Shown: positions 50,315 through 62,702, counted from the first letter of the stretch. The stretch: DNA of 64,000 nucleotides from an uncultured Oligoflexia bacterium (GCA_913058265.1 CAJXPQ010000008.1:1-64000), one strand, 5' to 3'. Notes: generated by a model not told the origin, from the letters alone. Made by a program: numbers and translations.

Positions 50315-51409
50315 TTATTGAACTTGTTTAATCGGTTCTTGATTAGGCTTTGAAGTGACTTTAGTTACTTCAAAGCTAATTCTACCAACCTCTAAGCCTT
50401 CTTCGGTTTCCACTCGTACTTGCCATTCACCCTCAGTGTAATTTGATTTAAAGGTAAAGCCTCTAAAGCCTTCACGTCTTCCCCCAGAAATATTCAGCGG
50501 GATTCTATCTGATGTTTGTAACCCAGTATTTGTTTCTTTGAGCCAATGGAGAAAGATTTTTCCTGTATAACCACCGGGGGCAAAAATTTTAGTGAAAACA
50601 AAAATATTATCACCAGGACTTGCTTTAAAGTCTTGATCACCATTGTGCCAGAACTTCCACCTAGGCTTGTGTTCATATGTTTCATAGGAGCCATCAACTT
50701 TTACAATATTGTGGTAAATGCCAATATATTTAATACTTAATGGAATGGGGGGGAGAACCTTCATAATATAAAGTAAAGCAAAGACAACTATGACGGAGAT
50801 TTGCGGAATCAGGAATTCTTTTAAGAGCTGCTCTTTGACACCTGCTATACCTAATAGATACTTAAAAGCTATAATAGAGATAATAAGAGCTAAAGTAAGG
50901 CATGCGTAAAAAATAAAGTGACCAGTAGTGCCAAGTAGAACGGGAATAACACAAATGAGATAACTTATTAAGCAAAGCATAGTTAATGCTGTCCGAATAA
51001 TGACTCCAAGCTTTTTGAAAGTAGGTATTTCGTTTAAAAGTAATAATCCAATCATCACTAATAGAAATAAAAATGAATTTGCAAAGGAACTACTTTTGAA
51101 ATAAAAAAGAGTGAAAGCACTCAAAAGAGCACCAAGCGAGAAGTGGAAAATATCCTCTCGGTATTTCCACAATGTTTGTAACTTGAGATTTGATATTGTA
51201 TCTACCGATATATTTTTAAAGTCTAATCGTAGAATTCCCATGCACAGTAGAAGGTAGCAGCCGAGGGTAAGGATATTGCTAAAACTATCTATCTCACCAA
51301 GAGTAAAAATATCAAAAAGAAAACCAAGAATAAAGAATGAGGCTGGAACGTAATTTTCGTACTTCTGATGCTGATCTTTGAGGAGTAATTTAAACTTTTC
51401 AATATTCAT
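50315..51409 (-). CDS. DUF2914-family membrane protein
   Basis: 364 residues. About seven membrane helices in residues 20-225, then a soluble C-terminal domain resembling DUF2914: WKFWHNGDQDFKASPGDNIF, LHWLKETNT, GEWQVRVETEEGLEVGRISF. Function unknown. It is the last conserved gene before the island, and its start faces the first direct repeat. Confidence 0.75.
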   Translation of the reverse strand: MNIEKFKLLLKDQHQKYENYVPASFFILGFLFDIFTLGEIDSFSNILTLGCYLLLCMGILRLDFKNISVDTISNLKLQTLWKYREDIFHFSLGALLSAFTLFYFKSSSFANSFLFLLVMIGLLLLNEIPTFKKLGVIIRTALTMLCLISYLICVIPVLLGTTGHFIFYACLTLALIISIIAFKYLLGIAGVKEQLLKEFLIPQISVIVVFALLYIMKVLPPIPLSIKYIGIYHNIVKVDGSYETYEHKPRWKFWHNGDQDFKASPGDNIFVFTKIFAPGGYTGKIFLHWLKETNTGLQTSDRIPLNISGGRREGFRGFTFKSNYTEGEWQVRVETEEGLEVGRISFEVTKVTSKPNQEPIKQVQ

Positions 51410-51435
51410 ATAGAAATTATAGATGAATCCAACTA

Positions 51436-51516
51436 CTCAAGTAATCTTTCGGAATTAATGACCCTCGTCTTTCTATTCATCTGTATGGGGTGTAAACTAG
51501 TAAGGTGTTAAATTTA
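51436..51516. repeat. Direct repeat copy 1 (81 bp), left boundary of the island
   Basis: Aligns without gaps to 61019-61099 with 12 mismatches in 81 positions. The core GGAATTAATGACCCTCGTC plus TTTC is unchanged, as are CTCAAGTAAT, TGTAAACTAGT and TTAAATTTA. It ends 17 bases before the ATG of the first island gene. Confidence 0.92.
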
Positions 51517-51532
51517 TAAACAGTGATAAAGT

Positions 51533-52549
51533 ATGCAAAAATATCTGTTTTCTAATCGAAAACAAGAGCTTATTTATTTTTATACTCCTGTCTTTTTGAC
51601 TTGCTTGTTGTTTTTAATTCCAAATGAATCGAGTCAGTGGTTATTTCAATTACCTCTCATCTATATTGGTCTTCAAATGATTGACTCGGGACATATCTGG
51701 CCATCTTTTTTAATTGCATATTCAAGTGAGAGGGCGAAGATCATACTTAGACTATTACCAGTAATTGTTCTAGTCATATACCTCCTTATTGGATTCTATT
51801 TCGATAAGTTTGGAATATATAGACTTCATGCTTATCTTGCAGCCTTTCACTTCATTAGACAACAATACGGAATATTAAAACTATCGTCGAACTTAAATCC
51901 ATCAAGAAGCTCTTGGATTAATAAAACAGAATTTTATAGTATCTATGCAATCACTATATCATCTCTAATTGGAAGAATGTCCAATGAAGGCGTTTGGATG
52001 AGAGATGCAGATTTAATACAGATACCTGAACTTTACTTTCATCCGGCAATGACCATTTTTTTCTTCACTGTTTTACTTTATAGTTCATTAGTATTGTATT
52101 CGTATTTTAAATATCAAGAATTTTTCTTAAGTCGTTTTCTTATTTACACGTCTGCGATTTTTGCGTGGGGAGTTATTGGTTTTACTAAATTGCCGATAAT
52201 CGCTTTGTTCCCATTATTTCATGACTTACCCTATTTGGGACTTATCTATAGATACCCAAATCCATGGCTTAAAAGAGTTAAAACTTATCTAAGTAAAATT
52301 AGATTCAGTACTGTGAATAGCTCATTCTTGGTTCTAGTTGTTATTACGATATTTATTGGATCCATTGTTGAGTTCAGTTTATATCGTTATCTCGATTTAC
52401 ATGTCGATGAGGATTTAAGTAACAGTTTGAAGGTTCTCCTTTGTTCAATTGCTTTTCTACCAACTACAACTCACTACCTTATTGATGGTTTTATCTGGAG
52501 AAAGGATATAATGCCAAACTCTATTTTAAATAACTCTGATAAATCTTAG
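51533..52549 (+). CDS. Polytopic membrane protein, island gene A
   Basis: 338 residues with about eight membrane spans. Marker segments are DSGHIWPSFLIAY, YLAAFHFIRQQYGILKLSS, FPLFHDLPYLGLIYRYPNP and TTHYLIDGFIWRKD, with histidines conserved in a paralogue at 60081-61004. No enzyme or transporter family recognised; the clustered membrane histidines could bind metal or substrate. Starts 17 bases after repeat copy 1. Its 3' end overlaps the convergent glycosyltransferase gene by 29 bases. Confidence 0.75.
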   Translation: MQKYLFSNRKQELIYFYTPVFLTCLLFLIPNESSQWLFQLPLIYIGLQMIDSGHIWPSFLIAYSSERAKIILRLLPVIVLVIYLLIGFYFDKFGIYRLHAYLAAFHFIRQQYGILKLSSNLNPSRSSWINKTEFYSIYAITISSLIGRMSNEGVWMRDADLIQIPELYFHPAMTIFFFTVLLYSSLVLYSYFKYQEFFLSRFLIYTSAIFAWGVIGFTKLPIIALFPLFHDLPYLGLIYRYPNPWLKRVKTYLSKIRFSTVNSSFLVLVVITIFIGSIVEFSLYRYLDLHVDEDLSNSLKVLLCSIAFLPTTTHYLIDGFIWRKDIMPNSILNNSDKS

Positions 52550-53633
52550 AGTATAGATCTGGTGCGACGTCCGGATGAAATGGGAAGAACTTTATGGCTT
52601 TACCAAGATATGCTTTGAATAAAGGAGAGATAACTCCGAAAAGAATTGGTTCATTTAAAAGTAACTCATCAAAAGACTTCTTAAAGCGATAAGCCGAGAA
52701 ATAATCTTTAGCCTGCATTTGTATTTCTTGGTTCGTTTTATTTGCTATTGGTTGTAGTGAAATGAGTTTCTTTAGGAGTAACTCTTTATCTGGAAAAGGA
52801 ATATTATTATAAACCTTTATTGGAATAATAGAAACTTCTTTGAAATTGAAGTAATTCGCATGGCCACCCCAGTCTGAAATGATAATACGATGACCAGCAA
52901 GAAGAGATTGCGCTAAACTATATCCATAGTCTTCATCGTGATAAGTACTTAATGAAATACTTGTATTACAAATTGAAATGATTTTTCTTAGATCAGCTTG
53001 ATTCAAAGAACCATGATACTTTATATTTGAACAACGTTTTATTATTTCTAAGCATTTTTCCTTGTAATTAATAGCTTCGATACCGTGAAGATGATAGCCA
53101 CGTTTGTGAAAATCCCCTGCTAAATGTAGAGTTAAGTCTTTTCTAAAATTTAAGGATAAAACTTCAAATACTTGAAGTAGTTCTAATATATTCTTTTGTT
53201 GTGTGATCCGACCGGAGTATAACAGATTGGTGGATGGAGGGGAAAGAGGGAAAACTTCAAGTAATGGAAATGGAATTTCATAAATTAATTCTTTATTGAA
53301 GAATAAACAGGCTTGTTGATATTGTCTTCTAGATGCAACCCAAATTTTTACTTTACGCTTTTCTAATATTTTAGGTAGTTTGAGCCACCTTTCAACTTCT
53401 ATTGTGAGGTTACCAAAAATAGGAAGTATCAGCTCTATATCACTGTTTAACTGAGGGAGAAGATCTTCCCACTTTAGTTGATCCGCCAGCAGTATTAACT
53501 GTTCAAACTGATTGGCTTCTTTAATCGTTGATACTCGTTTGATCTCTGGAAGTGACACCACTATATTATCAATAATTAGTTGAGCTGAATTCCAAAAATG
53601 TGGCTCTTTAGAAATAAATACTGCTTGTTTCAT
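52521..53633 (-). CDS. Glycosyltransferase (GT4-like)
   Basis: 370 residues. GT-B fold features: LLYSGRITQQKNILELLQVF (start of the nucleotide-sugar domain), LTLHLAGDFHKRG, IKYHGSLNQADLRKIISICN, and the STYHDEDYGYSLAQSLLAG acceptor/donor motif. No signal peptide, so cytoplasmic. Last gene of the six-gene minus operon, overlapping the ATP-grasp-like gene by 4 bases. The acceptor may be the modified peptide or scaffold (inference). Confidence 0.83.
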   Translation of the reverse strand: MKQAVFISKEPHFWNSAQLIIDNIVVSLPEIKRVSTIKEANQFEQLILLADQLKWEDLLPQLNSDIELILPIFGNLTIEVERWLKLPKILEKRKVKIWVASRRQYQQACLFFNKELIYEIPFPLLEVFPLSPPSTNLLYSGRITQQKNILELLQVFEVLSLNFRKDLTLHLAGDFHKRGYHLHGIEAINYKEKCLEIIKRCSNIKYHGSLNQADLRKIISICNTSISLSTYHDEDYGYSLAQSLLAGHRIIISDWGGHANYFNFKEVSIIPIKVYNNIPFPDKELLLKKLISLQPIANKTNQEIQMQAKDYFSAYRFKKSFDELLLNEPILFGVISPLFKAYLGKAIKFFPFHPDVAPDLYSKIYQSYLK

Positions 53634-54634
53634 GATATCGCCAATAGATATTTTGTTTTTTTTATTTCCAAGATATTGTTACCACACAAAAAGATTAATT
53701 GAGATGAGCCGTTTTTAGGAGACATATAGATAGTTCCTGTTTTAGCTTTCCGATTATATTTAAGTGATCTAGGTACATTCTTATTAGTCAAAATGAGTTC
53801 ACCAACACCATTCATAGGTAAAAAAGATTTTAATTGATTCAGTAATTCTCCCATATTCCTTCTGTAGTTTATATCAGAGCAAAAGTATAATTCCTCTTTA
53901 TCATAAATGAAAGAATCTATACTGAGATTTTGTTTTAATGGCAACGTTTCAAGATATTGTATCAATATGTTAGTTTTAGTTCTAAGAGTCTCTATACTTT
54001 TATACTTATGTAGGTATTTAAAAAAATCTTTCTGTTGTTGAAAAACAACTCCTCCTAGGTACGCACCATCTTTTGAGGTTGAACATAAATAATATTCGCC
54101 GGTTTTTGTCTCAGAATTGTAATAGAAGCTGACATCAATTATCTTTTTATAATAAGGCTCTACAATTATAGGGTAGTGTAAGGGATTGTTTAAGTGGGCG
54201 CGTCCAGAATTAATACCAGACATAAGGTATGGAGATTTAAAAAAAAAATGATTTTTAGGTGTAAGTTCAGAAAATTGTTCTTTATTGTTGATGAATTCAT
54301 AGCTCGAAGGCGCCAGGCAGAGTTTTTCTAATATCTCCAGCATTTTTATTTTAGAGTTTAGTTGCTTTTCCAACTCAATATCCTTGAGAGAACCATACCA
54401 ATTTTCAATATTTATAGCTCCCTCTGTTATGGTATTTGTAATTAAACCTAGATCATTTAAGTATTCTATATACTCAGATGAATATTCTATGTCGGTTATT
54501 AAGAAGTCTTGATTATATTGTTTATAGAAAAAAAAGAGACATTCCAAATCAGACTTCACTTCTAACTGAAAAGAACTTTCATCTTTAAATAATTCTATCT
54601 CATAATCTAAGTTTACTTTCCAGTACCTTTTCAT
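53630..54634 (-). CDS. ATP-grasp-like ligase
   Basis: 334 residues. The central part reads as ATP-grasp: HFFFKSPYLMSGINSGR (nucleotide-binding strand and Gly loop), IIVEPYYKKIIDVSFYY (adenine pocket strand with Glu) and FCSDINYRRNMGELL (metal-binding Asp/Asn/Arg, equivalent to the ExNxR motif). ATP-grasp enzymes join a carboxylate to an amine through an acyl phosphate. In this operon the obvious role is adding an amino acid or amine to the small peptide. Overlaps both neighbours by 4 bases. Family call is by motif only. Confidence 0.6.
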   Translation of the reverse strand: MKRYWKVNLDYEIELFKDESSFQLEVKSDLECLFFFYKQYNQDFLITDIEYSSEYIEYLNDLGLITNTITEGAINIENWYGSLKDIELEKQLNSKIKMLEILEKLCLAPSSYEFINNKEQFSELTPKNHFFFKSPYLMSGINSGRAHLNNPLHYPIIVEPYYKKIIDVSFYYNSETKTGEYYLCSTSKDGAYLGGVVFQQQKDFFKYLHKYKSIETLRTKTNILIQYLETLPLKQNLSIDSFIYDKEELYFCSDINYRRNMGELLNQLKSFLPMNGVGELILTNKNVPRSLKYNRKAKTGTIYMSPKNGSSQLIFLCGNNILEIKKTKYLLAIS

Positions 54635-56277
54635 TCTTGGGATTTCGTTATTAAGAAATTTTCGACATATATGTACTTAATGCAACTTTTATTAAAAAAT
54701 TTGAGGAGATCATCTAGGTCATCTACAATGGGACAACCCATTATATTTAAGCTTGTATTTAAAAGTATCGGATAACTCGATATTTTTTCAAACTCTTTTA
54801 TCAAATTATAAAAAATAGGTTGTTTGATTTTATCGACAGTTTGTAGCCGACAAGTTTTATCTATGTGAGAGATATCTTCTAAGCTTTTACTTTCTTTTAA
54901 TAATGCAATCTTATTCATAAAAGGGGACTCAAATCCTTTCGTAACATCAAAGTAACTCTGTACTTTTTCTTTTAATATACTCGCTCCATATGGACGAAAG
55001 GCCTCGCGAAATTTTACTTTCTCATTCAAATATTTTTTTTGTTTAGACAGATGAGGAGCTGCCAGTAAACTCCTATTGCCTAGAGCTCTAGGTCCTATTT
55101 CGCTGCGTCCTTGGACCCAAGCTATTATTTCTCCGTCATTTAGCAATTGTGCAATTTGAACTAGATTCGTTTCCTCTATTTTTTCTTTACTAAATACTTT
55201 GCGGATATCTGATATTTTGAAGTCTCTCCCCAGAAATGGGCTTGCTGCTAGACACTCTTTGACGTCACTTAGTGAGTGCTCTTGAATTGCCAAACTAGTT
55301 GCACAACCAATACTAATACCAAAATCTCCAGGATTGGGAGGGTTCCAAAGAGTATATTTTTCTCCAAGTTTAGTATTAAGGATACAGTTCAAGGCCACTC
55401 CTCCTGTGAAAATAAGCTTATCACTGCTGCTAATATATTTTTTAAGCAGTACTGTAATTTTTCTCTCTAATCTTACTTGAACTTCTAGAGCGACATCTGC
55501 CAAATGGTCACGATCTTCTTGCTTTAAGTTGTTGAACTTAACTTGACCTAGGCTTTTGTTTGGAGCGAGATTGATAAGGTGATTGTTTAGTTCAAAATCC
55601 GTCATTTCAGTGTGGTAAGGCTTTTTTCCAAACGTACTGAGACCCATTACCTTGCCTGAGTTTTGCCAATCTCCAAAAATATAGTTTGCAGCGTTCATAT
55701 ACAGACTCCCAATTCCTTCATTTAGGGGGTACTCAAGTCCATTCTTAACTATCACAGCATGTTTAGAGGACTCTTTATATATGAGTTCAAGTTCACCTGT
55801 GTAGTGATAGAGGGATAGAGTTTCGTTTTCATTGTCAGGTATATTGTGAAGTTTTTCTGTTAGATCGACTCCTTTACTACCAACGCCATCACAAACTAAA
55901 ATATAACAATCTTGAAAAGGAGATTGTCCAATTGCAGACATACAGTGAGCATAGTGGTGTGAAGGGTAATGCATCTCTGAGTTCTCTAGGCATGAAAGAC
56001 TCTTCATAAATTTAAGTGCAGAGTAGGCATAGCTCTTTTTTTCAAAACTTACTGGATGATTTGTACAAGAATTTGTGGCGAATCTTTTGTTAGGGAGTTT
56101 AATCAAATTTTTATTTTTTAGAATTAGCCACTTAGCACTGGTTGCTGGAAAGCCTCCGATATTTTTATTTCTAGATAATCTTTCTTCAAGAAGTGTGTAA
56201 GTCTCTTTTTTTTCCATATCCATTGATGTTAGATTTGAGTGGCTTATGCCGGTCTTAATTCCAATATATTTTTTCAA
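54631..56277 (-). CDS. NodU/CmcH-family O-carbamoyltransferase
   Basis: 548 residues, the usual size. Contains the catalytic YPSHHYAHCMSA (HxxxH), VCDGVGSKG, TGGVALNCILNTKL, and the C-terminal YrdC-like/ATP segment VQGRSEIGPRALGNRSLLA and FRPYGASIL, with PILLNTSLNIMG. These enzymes move a carbamoyl group from carbamoyl phosphate to a hydroxyl via carbamoyl-AMP. The target is likely a hydroxyl on the cluster's product. Overlaps neighbours by 4 bases each. Confidence 0.93.
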   Translation of the reverse strand: MKKYIGIKTGISHSNLTSMDMEKKETYTLLEERLSRNKNIGGFPATSAKWLILKNKNLIKLPNKRFATNSCTNHPVSFEKKSYAYSALKFMKSLSCLENSEMHYPSHHYAHCMSAIGQSPFQDCYILVCDGVGSKGVDLTEKLHNIPDNENETLSLYHYTGELELIYKESSKHAVIVKNGLEYPLNEGIGSLYMNAANYIFGDWQNSGKVMGLSTFGKKPYHTEMTDFELNNHLINLAPNKSLGQVKFNNLKQEDRDHLADVALEVQVRLERKITVLLKKYISSSDKLIFTGGVALNCILNTKLGEKYTLWNPPNPGDFGISIGCATSLAIQEHSLSDVKECLAASPFLGRDFKISDIRKVFSKEKIEETNLVQIAQLLNDGEIIAWVQGRSEIGPRALGNRSLLAAPHLSKQKKYLNEKVKFREAFRPYGASILKEKVQSYFDVTKGFESPFMNKIALLKESKSLEDISHIDKTCRLQTVDKIKQPIFYNLIKEFEKISSYPILLNTSLNIMGCPIVDDLDDLLKFFNKSCIKYIYVENFLITKSQE

Positions 56278-57500
56278 GGATAAACCTCTTCTTTGAAAAT
56301 TTCTTTAAAATATTGATTTAATAGCAAGGCTGATTTCTCTAGGTCTAGTTGATCGTAGTCTGGAGCTGTAATCCTTATAATCGTAGGTGTTGTACCATCC
56401 TCATACTTAATGAGATTTCCATGGGTTAAAAAGTCAAAGCCAAAGCTGTCACAATATTTTGCATTGAGATTGTGTAGAGAGTTTAGCTTCAAGAAAAGAT
56501 TTTTATTAGCTTGAGCTTTATATTGATAATGAACGAAAAAAAAGAGCTTGTGAGGTACAGTCTTTATTGTGATATATTCGTTTTCAATTTTAAGTAATGA
56601 TATTAATGTGTCGCAGTTTCTTTGTATTCGAGTAACTCGTTCAAGGTTGGCTTCGTTGATTTTATCATCACCTAAGAATGGATAAAAATTATCGATATTA
56701 AATCCAGCTCCTAAAATACCAGCTGTTTCATGTACTAGATTGGTAAGAAGGTCTAGGTCGGTATTTTTCTTTATAATGAGATCTTTATTTAAACCATGAA
56801 GGTTTGTGGGATTTATTATAGAGATTGAGCCCAGGTTACCGCAATCCGTCCCCAAGCTATCTAGTTTTAAATGGCTTCTTGAAAGAAATACGGTTTTATT
56901 TAATTTACTGCACTTACTGAATAAGTCTCTTAAGGTGACTCCTGTTAATGGATAGCAAGTTGTATCCACAATAATGCAATCGAAGACCTCCGTTTCAATG
57001 AGTTCAAAGTTATTCGACTTTGAGCTGTCGATGAAAAGGATTGATAAAGTTGGTAATTCTTTGCTCTGGTGACCTACACTCGACTTAAGTAGCTTTATTG
57101 TTTCATAGTACCATACGGAACTTTTTTTATGCAGCTCGAGACTGAAGTGGTTCTTAAGAGTCAAGAGGATACTTGCATTTGCTCCTTGACCACTATTGGT
57201 AAAAAGAAAAGATGAATTTTTTATTTGTTTAGTTTTATAATAATAATCGAGTCCTTGCTTGGGGTAGACTCCTTCTCTTTGGTAATTAAAACTTGCTTGC
57301 AAGTTCTCTGTTTTATAGAGCTTTCCTTTTTGATTTGTTACACTGGGAGCATTTTCAATATGAAATGCCTTAATATTTCGACCAATAGTTGACTTATAGT
57401 TTTGAATATCGAGATAGTTCTCAAACATTGGGAGAGTTGGGATTTTGATGTATTTTGAGAGAAGTGAGAGTTCGTGTTGTTTTATCTGGAGAAATGACAT
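56274..57500 (-). CDS. PLP-dependent fold-type-I enzyme (Cys/Met or class V-like)
   Basis: 408 residues. FTNSGQGANASILLTL matches the loop that holds PLP phosphate, CIIVDTTCYPLTG is the Asp-bearing strand, and LSRSHLKLDSLGTDCGNLGS is where the Schiff-base lysine belongs. TPTIIRITAP resembles the C-terminal carboxylate-binding Arg. The exact subfamily (aminotransferase, gamma-synthase or desulfurase) is unclear, and the sequence is divergent. Two bases after the PqqD-like gene. Confidence 0.7.
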   Translation of the reverse strand: MSFLQIKQHELSLLSKYIKIPTLPMFENYLDIQNYKSTIGRNIKAFHIENAPSVTNQKGKLYKTENLQASFNYQREGVYPKQGLDYYYKTKQIKNSSFLFTNSGQGANASILLTLKNHFSLELHKKSSVWYYETIKLLKSSVGHQSKELPTLSILFIDSSKSNNFELIETEVFDCIIVDTTCYPLTGVTLRDLFSKCSKLNKTVFLSRSHLKLDSLGTDCGNLGSISIINPTNLHGLNKDLIIKKNTDLDLLTNLVHETAGILGAGFNIDNFYPFLGDDKINEANLERVTRIQRNCDTLISLLKIENEYITIKTVPHKLFFFVHYQYKAQANKNLFLKLNSLHNLNAKYCDSFGFDFLTHGNLIKYEDGTTPTIIRITAPDYDQLDLEKSALLLNQYFKEIFKEEVYP

Positions 57501-57502
57501 GC

Positions 57503-57760
57503 TTAAGGGTCTTTAGTAATAATTTTAATATCAACTAAAGCTTCAAGCATTTCTTGTACTTTTTCTTGTGGTATCTCTTTTCCTGTTGAATCATTGAGTT
57601 TTTCTAATATTTCATTGGTGGATAGGTTTTTGGGTTCCATCTCAATAATCATAGAAACAAGTCCGTCTACTTTATAAACCATATCATCCTCATATGATAC
57701 GGTATTTATAGTCGATCCCTTCTTTGCCCAAATTATTGATGAATTTAGGGAAAACTTCAC
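57503..57760 (-). CDS. PqqD-like protein, candidate RiPP recognition element
   Basis: 85 residues. The pattern matches the PqqD winged-helix fold: a beta strand pair (INTVSYEDDMVYKVDGLVSM), then STNEILEKLNDSTGKEIPQE and VQEMLEALVDIKIITK. PqqD-type domains bind the leader of a precursor peptide. GTG start, directly abutting the TAG stop of the 42-residue peptide gene upstream, so tightly coupled. Confidence 0.82.
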   Translation of the reverse strand: MKFSLNSSIIWAKKGSTINTVSYEDDMVYKVDGLVSMIIEMEPKNLSTNEILEKLNDSTGKEIPQEKVQEMLEALVDIKIITKDP

Positions 57761-57889
57761 CTAAGATCTCGCAGCTGCAGATAATTCAATCTCGAGGCTA
57801 TCATCATCTAGTAGGTCTGGTAGTTCTATAGCTTGAATAGTGCCAAACTCACCAAAGTCATATAGTTCTTTGTATATAGTCTCTGCCAT
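57761..57889 (-). CDS. 42-residue acidic peptide, candidate RiPP precursor or carrier
   Basis: Encodes 42 residues beginning MAETIYKELYDFGEF and ending EIELSAAARS. It is strongly acidic (11 Asp/Glu against one Lys and one Arg), with LPDLLDDDSLEIEL before the short tail. GGGGA lies 7 bases before the ATG, and a TTGTTT-17-TATAAT promoter lies farther upstream. Its TAG stop touches the GTG of the PqqD-like gene. The arrangement is that of a precursor peptide with its recognition protein; alternatively it may act as a LysW-type carrier. Modified residues are unknown; Ser37, Ser42 and the C-terminus are candidates. Confidence 0.72.
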   Translation of the reverse strand: MAETIYKELYDFGEFGTIQAIELPDLLDDDSLEIELSAAARS

Positions 57890-57925
57890 TTTACATTCCC
57901 CAAAATTTTACATAATTCAGTATAA

Positions 57926-57954
57926 ATTATACCATGTAGAGGCTTATCAAACAA
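57926..57954 (-). promoter_or_regulatory. Putative promoter of the peptide-modification operon
   Basis: On the minus strand TTGTTT (57949-57954) and a perfect TATAAT (57926-57931) are separated by 17 bases. This gives a leader of about 30 bases before the precursor ATG at 57889. It lies in the 101-base divergent gap facing the decarboxylase gene. Confidence 0.6.
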
Positions 57955-57990
57955 TGCTTTTACTTATTGCAGAAAAGAAAACGGTAGTCT

Positions 57991-58968
57991 ATGGGCCTAA
58001 ATGCTAAAGATTTAATAAGGTTATTACTCCTGTCTAAGTCGCAGTCTCTTTATATATATGACTTAGAGCTCTTAAAAAGCCGTTTTGCGTCTATAACTAT
58101 GGATAAGCCAGATAACGTATCTTTTTTATTCCCAGTTAAAGCCTTTCCTCATTGTAAGTTATTAGAATTAGTATCAGAGTACTTTGATGGCTTTGATGTA
58201 TCAAATGAGAATGAGTTTAATCTAGTTAAAGATTGCATTAACGATGACCATGTTTGTTGGAGCTCAGCGCCATATGATACCTCATACCCAGGTTTTAGTT
58301 ATAATAAACTTTTCGTAGATGGTGTCAGTAGCCAGAGATTTAATTTAGACAGTTTTTTGGGGCAGCAAAGTCGTTTCGGGCTGGATCTTGAGCAAGGTAT
58401 TACTTCCTCGGCCATCCACATGCATTTAGGCTTTCAAAATAATACCAAAGACTCAATTCTTAAGTGTGCAGAGTATATAGAAAAAAAATGTAGAAACTCA
58501 ATTGTTACAGAAATAAACCTTGGTGGAGGTTTTGATTTTTCGTCCATGAGTGAGATGCAGGACTGTGTACTAGATGTTTCAGACATTTTATCGGATTATA
58601 AAATATACTTTGAGCCAGGCAATTGGGTTACCCAGGGGTGTGGAGCAATTATTGGAAGAATACTAGGCGTTTTAAAAGCAGGTAATGATTTTAAGGTTAC
58701 AACATCTGTCTCGGCATTAGGGCATTTGCGTTGGAGCCAAAGCATAGAGTTGTCTCTTAAAGGATTGTTAGGAGTAAAGACTAAGTATGAAAGACTTCAG
58801 CTATTTGGTCCTACTTGTTCTGAAAGTGATATCATTGCAGACTTGTATGACGGAGAGTCATCATTAAATTTAGGGGATTTTATAATTATCAAAGGTCTGA
58901 GTTCATACTCTTATGCTTGGAGATGTGACTTTAATGGGATTAAAGCACCAGACTTAGTCTTTATATAG
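57991..58968 (+). CDS. Fold-type-III PLP decarboxylase-like protein (LysA/ODC family)
   Basis: 325 residues, shorter than LysA (about 420). FLFPVKAFPH holds the PLP lysine, FDVSNENEFNLV is the second barrel strand, HMHLGFQ the stacking His, and INLGGGFDF the Gly loop. The phosphate-binding EPGR is EPGN (YFEPGNWVTQGCG). FGPTCSESDII (Cys and Asp of the dimer active site) and YSYAWRCDFNG close the family pattern. The Arg loss resembles carboxynorspermidine-type decarboxylases. It probably makes an amine or amino-acid building block for the cluster. First gene of the plus operon. Confidence 0.82.
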   Translation: MGLNAKDLIRLLLLSKSQSLYIYDLELLKSRFASITMDKPDNVSFLFPVKAFPHCKLLELVSEYFDGFDVSNENEFNLVKDCINDDHVCWSSAPYDTSYPGFSYNKLFVDGVSSQRFNLDSFLGQQSRFGLDLEQGITSSAIHMHLGFQNNTKDSILKCAEYIEKKCRNSIVTEINLGGGFDFSSMSEMQDCVLDVSDILSDYKIYFEPGNWVTQGCGAIIGRILGVLKAGNDFKVTTSVSALGHLRWSQSIELSLKGLLGVKTKYERLQLFGPTCSESDIIADLYDGESSLNLGDFIIIKGLSSYSYAWRCDFNGIKAPDLVFI

Positions 58969-58978
58969 GCAGTATGAA

Positions 58979-60094
58979 ATGAATAAGCAGCGCTGGGAGT
59001 ATTTAGATTTTTTTAAAGGGTTTTATATCTTTTTTGTTTGCGCAGGAAATATAACTCAGATGAATGGTACTTTTTGGATGGTGCCAGACTATATCCCTAT
59101 GGGGGATCTTTCTTGGATAGATAGTATATCAGCTAAACTACTCCATTACTTTTTTGTCCCTGAGCTGAATGTAATGTTTACAATGATTTATGGGCATAAT
59201 ATTTATTTATGGATGAGTAGAGGCTTTTCTGTAGGGGATTTCTTTAAAAGAACTATAACGTTAATGTCCTTCGGTCTTATTCATGCTGCATTTTTTTACT
59301 GGGGAGATATACTCTTCATACATGGCGTCATATCAGTAGGTCTTTTATTCTTAATTAAAACAACATCTCGCTTTGATATAAAACTTTTTATAATTCTTTG
59401 TTTATATTTAATATCGAGTGATATTTATCTTACTTTTTTCCACAAAGAGACCTTCGTCTCTTCCATTTCAGTTAATGAGCATTTGAAGTATGGCTCCCTC
59501 CCTTTTTGGGATCTTGTTGTGTACCGTTTTAAGGACTTCTATGCCTTCAATTTCTACAGGATGTTTAATTGGGAGAGTAGTAAGTATACACTTATAACAT
59601 TTAACGCAATGATTACCTTTTTTACAGTAATGGTATTTGGAGTCATTCTTGGAAAGTGTAGGTTGTTTGAAAAATTAGAAAAAAATAGCAGTTATAAGAG
59701 TATTTTTGTCATGACTATCTTTTTTCTATTTGGCCAGTATCTAATATATTTATATCCTAGCTTTAAAGGCAGTAGCTATCACTTTAGGATCTTCTTTAAT
59801 ATCTTTTTTGTTATTTTAATCATAAACGAAGTCTATTATAGGCTTACACCTAATTGGATTAAGAGGTTTGTTATTCTTTCTGGTAAGAATACACTTACTA
59901 TCTACATCGGTGGGAATATTCTTGGTGCATGGCTACTGTCAGCTTATGGGCTTGGTCTATATCAAAAGATTGGACCATTTGTTTTATTTTTATCAGGAGC
60001 AATACTGTATTTTTTGTTAACCTTTTTAAGTATGAGATTTGGATTCCTTCCTTTGGAGATACTATGGAGAGGGATCGTGTATGCTAAAAAGTAA
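58979..60094 (+). CDS. DUF418-family membrane protein
   Basis: 371 residues with about nine or ten membrane spans. N-terminal RWEYLDFFKGFYIFFVCAGN and C-terminal FGFLPLEILWRGIVYAK match the ends of the DUF418/YeiB family, which is related to acyltransferase-3. Ten bases after the decarboxylase gene; overlaps the next gene by 14 bases. It may transfer or export a product of the cluster (inference). Confidence 0.75.
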   Translation: MNKQRWEYLDFFKGFYIFFVCAGNITQMNGTFWMVPDYIPMGDLSWIDSISAKLLHYFFVPELNVMFTMIYGHNIYLWMSRGFSVGDFFKRTITLMSFGLIHAAFFYWGDILFIHGVISVGLLFLIKTTSRFDIKLFIILCLYLISSDIYLTFFHKETFVSSISVNEHLKYGSLPFWDLVVYRFKDFYAFNFYRMFNWESSKYTLITFNAMITFFTVMVFGVILGKCRLFEKLEKNSSYKSIFVMTIFFLFGQYLIYLYPSFKGSSYHFRIFFNIFFVILIINEVYYRLTPNWIKRFVILSGKNTLTIYIGGNILGAWLLSAYGLGLYQKIGPFVLFLSGAILYFLLTFLSMRFGFLPLEILWRGIVYAKK

Positions 60095-61004
60095 AAGATT
60101 TATTTATTGGAGTTATGGTGTTGTACCGATTAGTCTTGAGTTAATTGCTTGCGATATACTTCTAGATGGTAGAATTAAAAACTTTCTTCCTTCTAATCCT
60201 CATGTCCTCATGACTTATTATTGTTTAATCTCTTTTTTGGTATGCCCCATATTTATGCAAGTTCTATATTATATTTAAATCGTAAATATATCAGTCAGGA
60301 TAAGAAGCATTATATTTTTGCAGCTTTGTTATATCTTTTTATTTATGTCTTAATTGGAGTGTTATTAGGATATTTTAATATTACAACAGCGATTGTTACT
60401 GTTTATACTGCATTTCACGTGGTGGGTCAGCAAGTGGGGATCAGTTTCTCAAGAGATCAAGAAAAAAATTGCATAATACAGTTGTGGAAGTGGGGGAGTT
60501 GTTTTTCTTTAATACCAATCTTTGCTTTTTATTATCATCGAGTATTCTTTGAAGGAGTCAAAGTGGAGTATTTGACCGGGGGAATTTTAGTAATATTCAT
60601 AATGCATTTTTTATTAGCATTAATAGCTTTGAGAAGTGTTACCCAACGAAAAATGTATATTTACACTAATCTATATATTTGGTCAGGTTTACTTTTTTTA
60701 CTTGCTCGATTATCCTTTTCTTTCATTTCTTTGCCAAAGGGTTACACATGATTTAACAGCTTTTATTTACTATTGTGCTCATAACGACATTGCAGGAGTA
60801 AAAGAAAATATCATTCTAAAGTTTCTCCCTGCTAAAAATATTAATTTTACATTTATAAGTATCTCTATAATTGTTTCAGCTTTCTTTACTTTGTTTATTT
60901 CAAGAATTGAAATCTTTTACGGTTTTGTTACATTGCTTTACTACTACATAGATAAAGTTATGTGGAGCAGTGAGTCTAGTCTTCGTAAAGCTTTACTCAT
61001 TTAG
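60081..61004 (+). pseudogene. Island gene B: frameshifted paralogue of gene A
   Basis: Three consecutive frames together resemble gene A at 51533-52549. The first frame (from ATG 60081) breaks at a T6 run (60233-60238): one more T would lead into GMPHIYASSILY. The second continues YVLIGVLLGYF and YTAFHVVGQQVGIS (gene A: AAFHFIRQQYGIL) until about 60735. The third, after a +1 shift near CCAAAGGG, gives VTHDLTAFIYYCAHN and LYYYIDKVMWSSES (gene A: FHDLPYLGLIYRY, THYLIDGFIWRKD). Net shift is zero. Either a real pseudogene or two base-call errors. Ends 14 bases before repeat copy 2. Confidence 0.8.
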
Positions 61005-61018
61005 CTCAAAACCAATAG

Positions 61019-61099
61019 CTCAAGTAATATCTTGGAATTAATGACCCTCGTCTTTCAATTTATAAGCATGGCCTGTAAACTAGTTAGGTATTAAATTTA
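61019..61099. repeat. Direct repeat copy 2 (81 bp), right boundary of the island
   Basis: Gap-free match to 51436-51516 (69 of 81 positions). It ends 20 bases before the rng ATG, so it is likely the native promoter/leader region of rng. Conserved blocks may hold promoter elements (TGTAAACTAGT is unchanged). Confidence 0.92.
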
Positions 61100-61118
61100 A
61101 AAGTTAAGGTTAAAATTC

Positions 61119-62702
61119 ATGGCAAAAGAACTTGTGATCAATCAGACTCATAATGAGAGTCGTATTGCGTTAATTGAAAATGGTGATATTCTCGATTTTC
61201 TTATCGATCGAGATATAACCGTTGGCGATAAACCTACCGTTGGAAATATTTATTTAGGGAGGGTTCTCAGAGTTCTTCCTGGTATGCAATCGGCCTTCGT
61301 TGATATTGGGTATGAGAGAGCTGGCTTTCTATACGTTGACGATGCTTATCTTCCCACCATTGAAGAGCAAAGAGAGATGACAAAGCGTCTCGAAGACAAA
61401 GTAAAAGAAACTAAAGTTGAGAGAAGCTCAGGTCAAGTTATCCCTGATGAATTTAGCACATTATCCGAATCTGTTGATATGAGGTATCGACCTGATGTCA
61501 AAATTCAAGACTTCCTAAAGGAAGGGGATGAAATCTTAGTACAAGTCGCTAAAGAACCGATATCAAGTAAGGGTCCACGGATTACTCGTCATATTACGCT
61601 GGCGGGAAGACATATTGTTTATATGCCAATGATTGAACATGTTGGGGTTTCTAGAAGAATTGAAAGTGAAGAAGAGCGTGAGAGACTAAAAGGAATTCTT
61701 GAGAGTGTGAGACCTGATGGTAAGGGAATTATTGCCCGAACTGTTGCTGAAGGACAATCACATAAAACATTAAAGAACGACTTTAGTTTATTAGTGAAGA
61801 TTTGGAAGGACGCTCAAAAAGTTATGGATGGGAAAGTAAAAGCTCCCTCGTTAGTCTATAAAGATCTAACTTTTATTCAACGATCTCTTCGAGATATTAC
61901 CGACGAAGATGTAAATAAAATCATTGTGGATTCAAAGCAAAATATTAAACAAGTTGAAAAATTTGTGAATAAATTCTTACCCTCTATGAAGGGGAAAGTT
62001 CAGCAGTATGAGAATGATCAACCTATTTTTGAGCATTATAATATTGATGTCGAAATTGAAAGAGCACTTAGTAATAAGGTATATCTACGCTCTGGTGGAT
62101 CATTAAATATTGATCAAACTGAGGCACTTGTTTCTATCGATGTTAATACAGGCAAATTTGTAGGAAAAAGAAGTTTAGAGGAAACGATTCTTAAAACAAA
62201 CTTAGAAGCGGTAAGAGAGCTTGCTTACCAGTTAAGAGTTCGTAACTGTGGTGGTATCATCATCATCGACTTCATTGATATGGAAAAAGAAGAGCATAAA
62301 GAACAAGTCTATACCACACTACTTGAGGCGCTTAAGAAAGATAGAGCTAAAACAAATGTCCTTCCTATCTCTGGGCTAGGACTTGTTGAAATGACAAGAA
62401 AGCGAACACGAGATACCTTAACTCGTGTAATGTGTGAGCCCTGCCCTTATTGTGAAGGAACAGGAACAGTAAAATCTGTAAGCACTGTCTGCTATGAAAT
62501 TTTAAGAGAAATCACTAAAGGGATGAAGAAGGCTAAGAATAAAAAAATTTCTATCTATGCTCATCCTGAAGTAAGTGCACAACTCACTAGTGAAGACTTT
62601 TCAATCATCGAAGTACTAGAAGAAAAATATGGAAAGCAATTAATTATTAGAGCGGATAACTCTTATCATATTGAACAGTATGAAATTTTTTTTAATGACT
62701 AG
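61119..62702 (+). CDS. rng: Ribonuclease G
   Basis: 527 residues. An S1 RNA-binding region (GNIYLGRVLRVLPGMQSAFV and DIGYERAGFLYVDD), the DNase-I-like catalytic part (SIDVNTGKFVGKRSLEETIL, GGIIIIDFIDM with catalytic Asp residues) and the zinc-link cysteines in CEPCPYCEGTG. Processes 16S rRNA 5' ends and decays mRNA. Normal length for RNase G and lacks the long RNase E tail. The gene begins just after the right repeat and overlaps the convergent gene by 4 bases. Confidence 0.95.
   Translation: MAKELVINQTHNESRIALIENGDILDFLIDRDITVGDKPTVGNIYLGRVLRVLPGMQSAFVDIGYERAGFLYVDDAYLPTIEEQREMTKRLEDKVKETKVERSSGQVIPDEFSTLSESVDMRYRPDVKIQDFLKEGDEILVQVAKEPISSKGPRITRHITLAGRHIVYMPMIEHVGVSRRIESEEERERLKGILESVRPDGKGIIARTVAEGQSHKTLKNDFSLLVKIWKDAQKVMDGKVKAPSLVYKDLTFIQRSLRDITDEDVNKIIVDSKQNIKQVEKFVNKFLPSMKGKVQQYENDQPIFEHYNIDVEIERALSNKVYLRSGGSLNIDQTEALVSIDVNTGKFVGKRSLEETILKTNLEAVRELAYQLRVRNCGGIIIIDFIDMEKEEHKEQVYTTLLEALKKDRAKTNVLPISGLGLVEMTRKRTRDTLTRVMCEPCPYCEGTGTVKSVSTVCYEILREITKGMKKAKNKKISIYAHPEVSAQLTSEDFSIIEVLEEKYGKQLIIRADNSYHIEQYEIFFND

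Follow-up and report, generated by a model that had tools for sequence, protein, structure and literature searches.

Carbamoyltransferases are rare in modified ribosomal peptide (RiPP) pathways. One has been shown at work in the std cluster of Streptomyces thermodiastaticus, whose NodU-like enzyme turns a Lys of the peptide into homocitrulline; the same paper lists a single further well-characterised RiPP that has such an enzyme, crocagin (PMC13174530). The locus described here, an island of about 9.7 kb in a marine Bacteriovorax-like bacterium, resembles the std cluster in combining an RRE-containing RiPP pathway with a NodU-like carbamoyltransferase, but YcaO-TfuA, MNIO and a peptidase fused to the carbamoyltransferase, all present in std, were not found in the island, which possesses a pair of PLP enzymes where the std report names none (PMC13174530). 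The lasso RRE proteins TbiB1 and TfuB1, as well as PqqD, belong to the same fold family as the 85-aa protein of the island, whereas neither a lasso peptidase nor a lasso cyclase is present among the scanned island proteins. Crocagin, like the island, combines a RiPP pathway with a carbamoyltransferase; its core and enzymes differ from those of the island, and to our knowledge it has no pair of PLP enzymes.

Among single enzymes, the closest solved relative of the island decarboxylase family is carboxynorspermidine decarboxylase, carboxynorspermidine being an amine that bears a 3-amino-3-carboxypropyl group; unlike that enzyme, the island family stays far below the NCBIfam equivalog cut-off (35.3 of 409 bits) and some of its members lack the catalytic Cys. 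Cystathionine gamma-synthase, methionine gamma-lyase and O-acetylhomoserine sulfhydrylase correspond to the 408-aa enzyme in fold and in the order of catalytic residues, from which it differs by the lack of reliable sequence similarity and by its location in a peptide cluster. No published RiPP class with the enzyme set of the island was found in a literature coverage that includes few subscription papers, and searches for papers that link RiPPs to PqqD, carbamoyltransferase and pyridoxal, to cystathionine gamma-synthase, or to a decarboxylase and polyamine returned none. The preliminary description of this DNA knew of no described RiPP class with the set, which agrees with this search; at the level of gene content the class is probably new.

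Layout and borders of the island

The gene organisation, borders and recurrence of the island and the family identities of its proteins were established computationally. The window, i.e. the whole stretch of 64,000 nucleotides analysed, contains the island at approximately 51410-61118, an extent given by a genome of the same genus with an empty site, in which the flanking genes adjoin each other: the homologue of 50315-51409 is followed by RNase G after 168 nt. This RNase G is about 84-85% identical to the window copy (61119-62702). A second genome of the same genus likewise lacks the island at this site and carries its own distant version elsewhere. Direct repeats of 94 nt, 82% identical, are located one at each island end, the left one at the border (51426-51519, plus strand) and the right one (61009-61102, plus strand) covering or duplicating the upstream region of RNase G; no further copies were found elsewhere in the genome. 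The island genes include no recognisable integrase, leader peptidase or exporter. Near the borders, scans with defence-system models and for RNA families and tRNAs yielded nothing relevant, and promoter and terminator scans performed no better than on shuffles.

Six minus-strand genes form a tightly coupled run from 57889 to 52521, and all of these open reading frames lie where the preliminary description had placed them, joined as it reported by 4-base overlaps or gaps of 0-2 bases. The GTG start of the 85-aa gene directly follows the stop of the 42-aa peptide gene (0-nt gap), 2 nt separate the 85-aa and 408-aa genes, and 4-nt overlaps connect the 408-aa with the 548-aa, the 548-aa with the 334-aa and the 334-aa with the 370-aa gene. 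On the plus strand, the divergent genes encode a 325-aa protein (57991-58968) and then a 371-aa protein (58979-60094), and a membrane gene (51533-52549) is convergent with the glycosyltransferase gene. The divergent operon was initially credited with a decarboxylase-like and two membrane proteins: the decarboxylase and one membrane protein hold, while the second (60221-61004, plus strand) is a broken gene split over two frames, with a weak family-profile match in frame 0 and, in frame 1, the ending YYIDxxxW, probably a decayed copy or remnant related to the membrane gene at 51533-52549.

Precursor peptide, recognition protein and related loci

The minus-strand run is headed by a precursor peptide of 42 aa (57761-57889, minus strand) with the leader ...YDFGEFGTI... 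and a putative core near ...ELSAAARS. The tiny acidic peptide with which the run was said to begin is supported by same-leader peptides, which occur beside the same genes in ten loci; the refuting condition set by the preliminary description, homologous loci devoid of any conserved peptide gene, was checked and did not overturn the proposal. The neighbourhoods of relatives repeatedly contain small ORFs (42-62 aa) whose leader follows the pattern [DY][FY]GxFGxI; an Asp-rich stretch is common in the family, and two peptide copies per locus are frequent. The C-termini are variable (SAAARS, AKTARTLIN, AKVTRS, AAARRKRPIK, IAAAAART, FFSTARD and others). A small-small-[R/K] motif occurs within the last 14 residues of 12 of 14 peptides, compared with 3.5 in shuffles, a count that is descriptive, because the motif was picked after the data were seen and the peptides are related. 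Lys or Arg is present in the C-terminal region of the peptide in all ten loci with peptide and carbamoyltransferase, and the sole precursor without either belongs to L011, a locus devoid of carbamoyltransferase and decarboxylase. The peptide is under purifying selection: dN is below dS in the pairs where both are computable, with dN/dS of about 0.1-0.2 for two of them and near 0.4 for a third. In the genome G141 a second precursor (L036:8501-8617) is interrupted by a stop codon, either as a pseudogene or by assembly error.

A peptide HMM built from the peptides found beside the PLP gene has strong matches in 11 of 369 genomes of the phylum, all of them among the 15 with the PLP enzyme, and weak matches alone in two further genomes (E 0.003-0.008); as the profile was made from PLP-adjacent peptides, this comparison measures specificity and is not an independent discovery. 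When the window and its closest relative L035 are excluded, the profile recovers the window peptide in its own genome at E = 0.0096 only, and therefore its position backs it as much as its sequence does. Judged by these comparisons, the window peptide gene is taken as real, with a conserved leader and a variable core.

The second gene of the run encodes the putative PqqD-like RiPP recognition element of 85 aa (57503-57760, minus strand). By itself the window protein has no match to a PqqD model, and PF05402 run over its own genome misses it, so the family was tested through homologues. PF05402 is matched by four of 12 family members (best 4.6e-10), and the family profile aligns with the lasso-peptide RRE TbiB1 at E 1.1e-4 over positions 4-87, with weaker matches to a PqqD-family lasso chaperone and to PqqD. 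The original assignment as PqqD-like finds support in these homologues, and by family homology we read the protein as a PqqD/RRE protein.

Homologues of the PLP enzyme are present in 15 of the 369 phylum genomes and, in a scan of 84,980 genomes with a single search pattern, at seven loci, whose hosts are Bacteriovoracaceae-type, proteobacterial or deltaproteobacterial MAGs. Peptide, PqqD-like protein, PLP enzyme and carbamoyltransferase occur together in ten Bacteriovoracaceae loci, window included, nine of which also possess the decarboxylase. Carbamoyltransferase and decarboxylase are absent from L011, L039 and L043, which contain the PLP enzyme, and L009 has the enzyme without a nearby peptide. 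The variant at L011:5679-9925 consists of PLP enzyme, PqqD-like protein, GT2 and a JmjC/cupin protein, that at L039:1541-4683 of PLP enzyme, PqqD-like protein, GT2 and DUF6445. Oxygenases of the 2-oxoglutarate type lie near the cluster in three relatives, L008 and L010 (by Pfam) and L035 (by an HxD pattern).

The genome of the window contains three more PqqD-type loci. L066 (C2:242000-257000), with a counterpart in genome G077 (L067), encodes a precursor (L066:7423-7947) that joins the same leader to a Hint-like domain (ESVLLAAA|CFHPSS), whose Pfam Hint match (E 0.0095) stays below the cut-off. A PqqD-like protein, another NodU-type carbamoyltransferase, proteins of the arginase and deoxyhypusine-synthase families, JmjC/cupin proteins and two glycosyltransferases accompany it. 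This locus favours a common leader system whose enzymes can be exchanged; some of these enzymes come from families with known roles in polyamine metabolism. In L068 (C9, 7193-12285), another candidate RiPP locus, a short peptide (MGNSDDKLKGKKGKPYFGGLTIVSLND...) has a PqqD-family protein in its vicinity, together with two radical SAM-like proteins and a GT2-like protein. L069 (C5; L069:2739-3236) combines in one protein a PqqD-like domain and, C-terminally, a peptide whose leader motif is similar and whose end is rich in Cys and Gly (SCGGCGGATLFCT); a DUF4135 protein is located nearby.

Enzymes and membrane proteins

The 408-aa PLP enzyme (56274-57500, minus strand) has no Pfam or NCBIfam match, and its 15 homologues show no significant sequence match to the Cys/Met gamma-family, a single one of them reaching E 0.13. 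Its predicted model is confident (pLDDT 85, pTM 0.88) and is best matched by O-acetylhomoserine sulfhydrylase 2cb1 (Z 21.8, rmsd 4.0, 305 residues), followed by cystathionine gamma-lyase, gamma-synthase, methionine gamma-lyase and Fub7 among the other top structures, so that the PLP enzyme initially proposed is borne out and refined to a Cys/Met gamma-family-like fold of type I. Y73, R75, D179, R208, S209, K212 and G224 are invariant across the 15 homologues, and Y131, Q105, H317, S352, G354 and R376 nearly so; the conserved residues parallel Y46, R48, Y101, D173, S195xxK198, S326xG328 and R361 of MetB, an equivalence taken from motif order and spacing rather than superposition. The PLP lysine, the Asp, the phosphate-binding YxR and the carboxylate Arg are all kept. 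Residue 351, preceding S352, is acidic, Asp in most homologues, and MetB has Glu325 before S326; methionine gamma-lyase and cystathionine beta-lyase carry residues other than Glu at this position. With hhalign, neither MetB nor MetC of E. coli gave a reliable alignment to the PLP family, and the Cys/Met PLP matches in the own genome are borderline, hence none is usable as an anchor. On its model the enzyme is a diverged fold of the cystathionine gamma-synthase/methionine gamma-lyase type with the catalytic residues retained. Its reaction is a guess, as the assignment uses fold and motif order and includes no reliable sequence match to MetB. The carboxylate-binding Arg suggests an alpha-amino acid with a free carboxylate as substrate; since an in-chain residue is unable to offer one, the most likely substrate is either a free amino acid that acts as donor or a group carried on a side chain.

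The 325-aa protein (57991-58968, plus strand) is a fold-III PLP decarboxylase nearest to carboxynorspermidine, ornithine and diaminopimelate decarboxylases. The best PDB match of its family profile is the carboxynorspermidine decarboxylase 3n29 (1.2e-27), with ornithine decarboxylase and a second carboxynorspermidine decarboxylase as the next solved relatives. The family keeps the lysine and the FNG motif. The Cys of the TCxExD motif, usually catalytic, is replaced by Ala in four of nine decarboxylases (L008:11251-12324, L036:4079-5152, L040:628-1671, L041:10530-11573), a substitution that may reflect a changed reaction.

Both NodU/TobZ carbamoyltransferase Pfam domains are present in the 548-aa protein (54631-56277, minus strand; PF16861 1.1e-54, PF02543 1.3e-15), which upholds its identification as a NodU-type carbamoyltransferase. 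Its HHxxH motif and D130 are shared without exception by 12 homologues, and the N-terminal HD of most homologues is absent from the window and L035 copies. The 370-aa protein (52521-53633, minus strand) proves to be a group 1 glycosyltransferase (PF00534 3.3e-9), consistent with its earlier annotation, and is represented in eight of the ten loci, counting the window, as well as in the sibling cluster. The 334-aa protein (53630-54634, minus strand) had been proposed as an ATP-grasp enzyme, an identity that is not established: it has no match in Pfam, NCBIfam or PDB, and its model, built from two sequences, reaches a pLDDT of 42. It is present in only two of the ten loci, and the L035 copy forms one protein with the carbamoyltransferase.

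The 371-aa membrane protein (58979-60094, plus strand) belongs to DUF418 (PF04235 1.6e-9) and has a homologue in L035. The 338-aa membrane protein (51533-52549, plus strand) has four invariant His and no Pfam family; its homologues are found in L035, L036 (two copies), L040 (partial), L041 and L067.

Proposed pathway and alternative readings

A short precursor with a conserved leader and a variable core is encoded together with, by family homology, an RRE, as in RiPP clusters, and the island is very probably a biosynthetic gene cluster for an undescribed class of RiPP. The RiPP-type island of the preliminary description stands with respect to the recognition protein and the conserved peptide; its ATP-grasp component is not established, and one of its membrane genes is broken. 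As the best account of the whole we favour, with good confidence, a RiPP cluster with RRE-delivered leader and the enzyme chemistry outlined below. This model includes, as proposals, leader binding, where and in what order the modifications occur, the aminopropyl transfer, and release and export; in it the PqqD-like protein would bind the leader (YDFGEFGTI region) and offer the short core at the C-terminus (around SAAARS) to the enzymes that modify it. The NodU-type enzyme would place a carbamoyl on an amine or hydroxyl, either in the core or in an added group, the chemical step we propose most confidently, followed in confidence by the addition of a sugar by the glycosyltransferase. Least confidently, the Cys/Met-type PLP enzyme would move an aminocarboxypropyl unit from activated homoserine or SAM to the Lys/Arg region of the core, and the decarboxylase would trim it to aminopropyl. 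The two enzymes are paired in this way because a group of the carboxynorspermidine type is what a gamma-replacement PLP enzyme would add; this aminopropyl step is nevertheless unlikely. The leader would be removed by a peptidase encoded outside the island. Less likely again is the fuller version, a RiPP class whose gamma-replacement PLP enzyme would, together with a carboxynorspermidine-type decarboxylase, create on the ribosomal peptide a polyamine-like aminopropyl branch bearing carbamoyl and sugar caps, and whose sibling form would use a Hint domain to release a leader-core peptide of the same kind as an activated C-terminus.

The peptide might instead serve as a scaffold or carrier in the style of pearlins or LysW, with a small molecule built on its C-terminus by the 334-aa protein as ligase and then released. 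Its short and acidic nature would suit this role, as would the two PLP enzymes, whose kinds usually have free amino acids as substrates, and the fusion of the possible ligase to the carbamoyltransferase in L035. That ligase, however, has an unproven fold and is missing from eight of the ten loci, and the LanB-like ligase of pearlin (PEARL) systems was not found in the island, where the only match, below threshold (E 0.085), lies in the 85-aa protein; the C-termini, moreover, vary widely, unlike a fixed carrier end. We regard this explanation as improbable.

Still less probable is a pathway for a free polyamine-like or sugar compound, or for the decoration of a surface glycan, with a separate function for the peptide and the PqqD-like protein. 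The tight coupling of the peptide and PqqD-like genes to the PLP gene, recurring in ten loci, argues against it, even though the decarboxylase is nearest to a polyamine enzyme and NodU-type enzymes, glycosyltransferases and membrane acyltransferase-like proteins are known from glycan clusters. Membership in a known class (lasso peptide, crocagin or std-type peptide) is the least probable of all: the PqqD/RRE family is closest to the lasso RRE TbiB1, and crocagin and std have carbamoyltransferases, but lasso cyclase, leader peptidase, YcaO and MNIO were not found among the island proteins, nor was any paper found with this enzyme set.

The island comes from a family of predatory-type bacteria from which we found no described RiPP cluster. 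It would bring PLP chemistry on or for a ribosomal peptide of a kind that we did not find described, and the Hint-fused sibling precursor adds to the interest of the system. The recurrence of the cluster in this family, and its location on an island that close relatives lack at this site, suggest that these bacteria make a dedicated, variable peptide.
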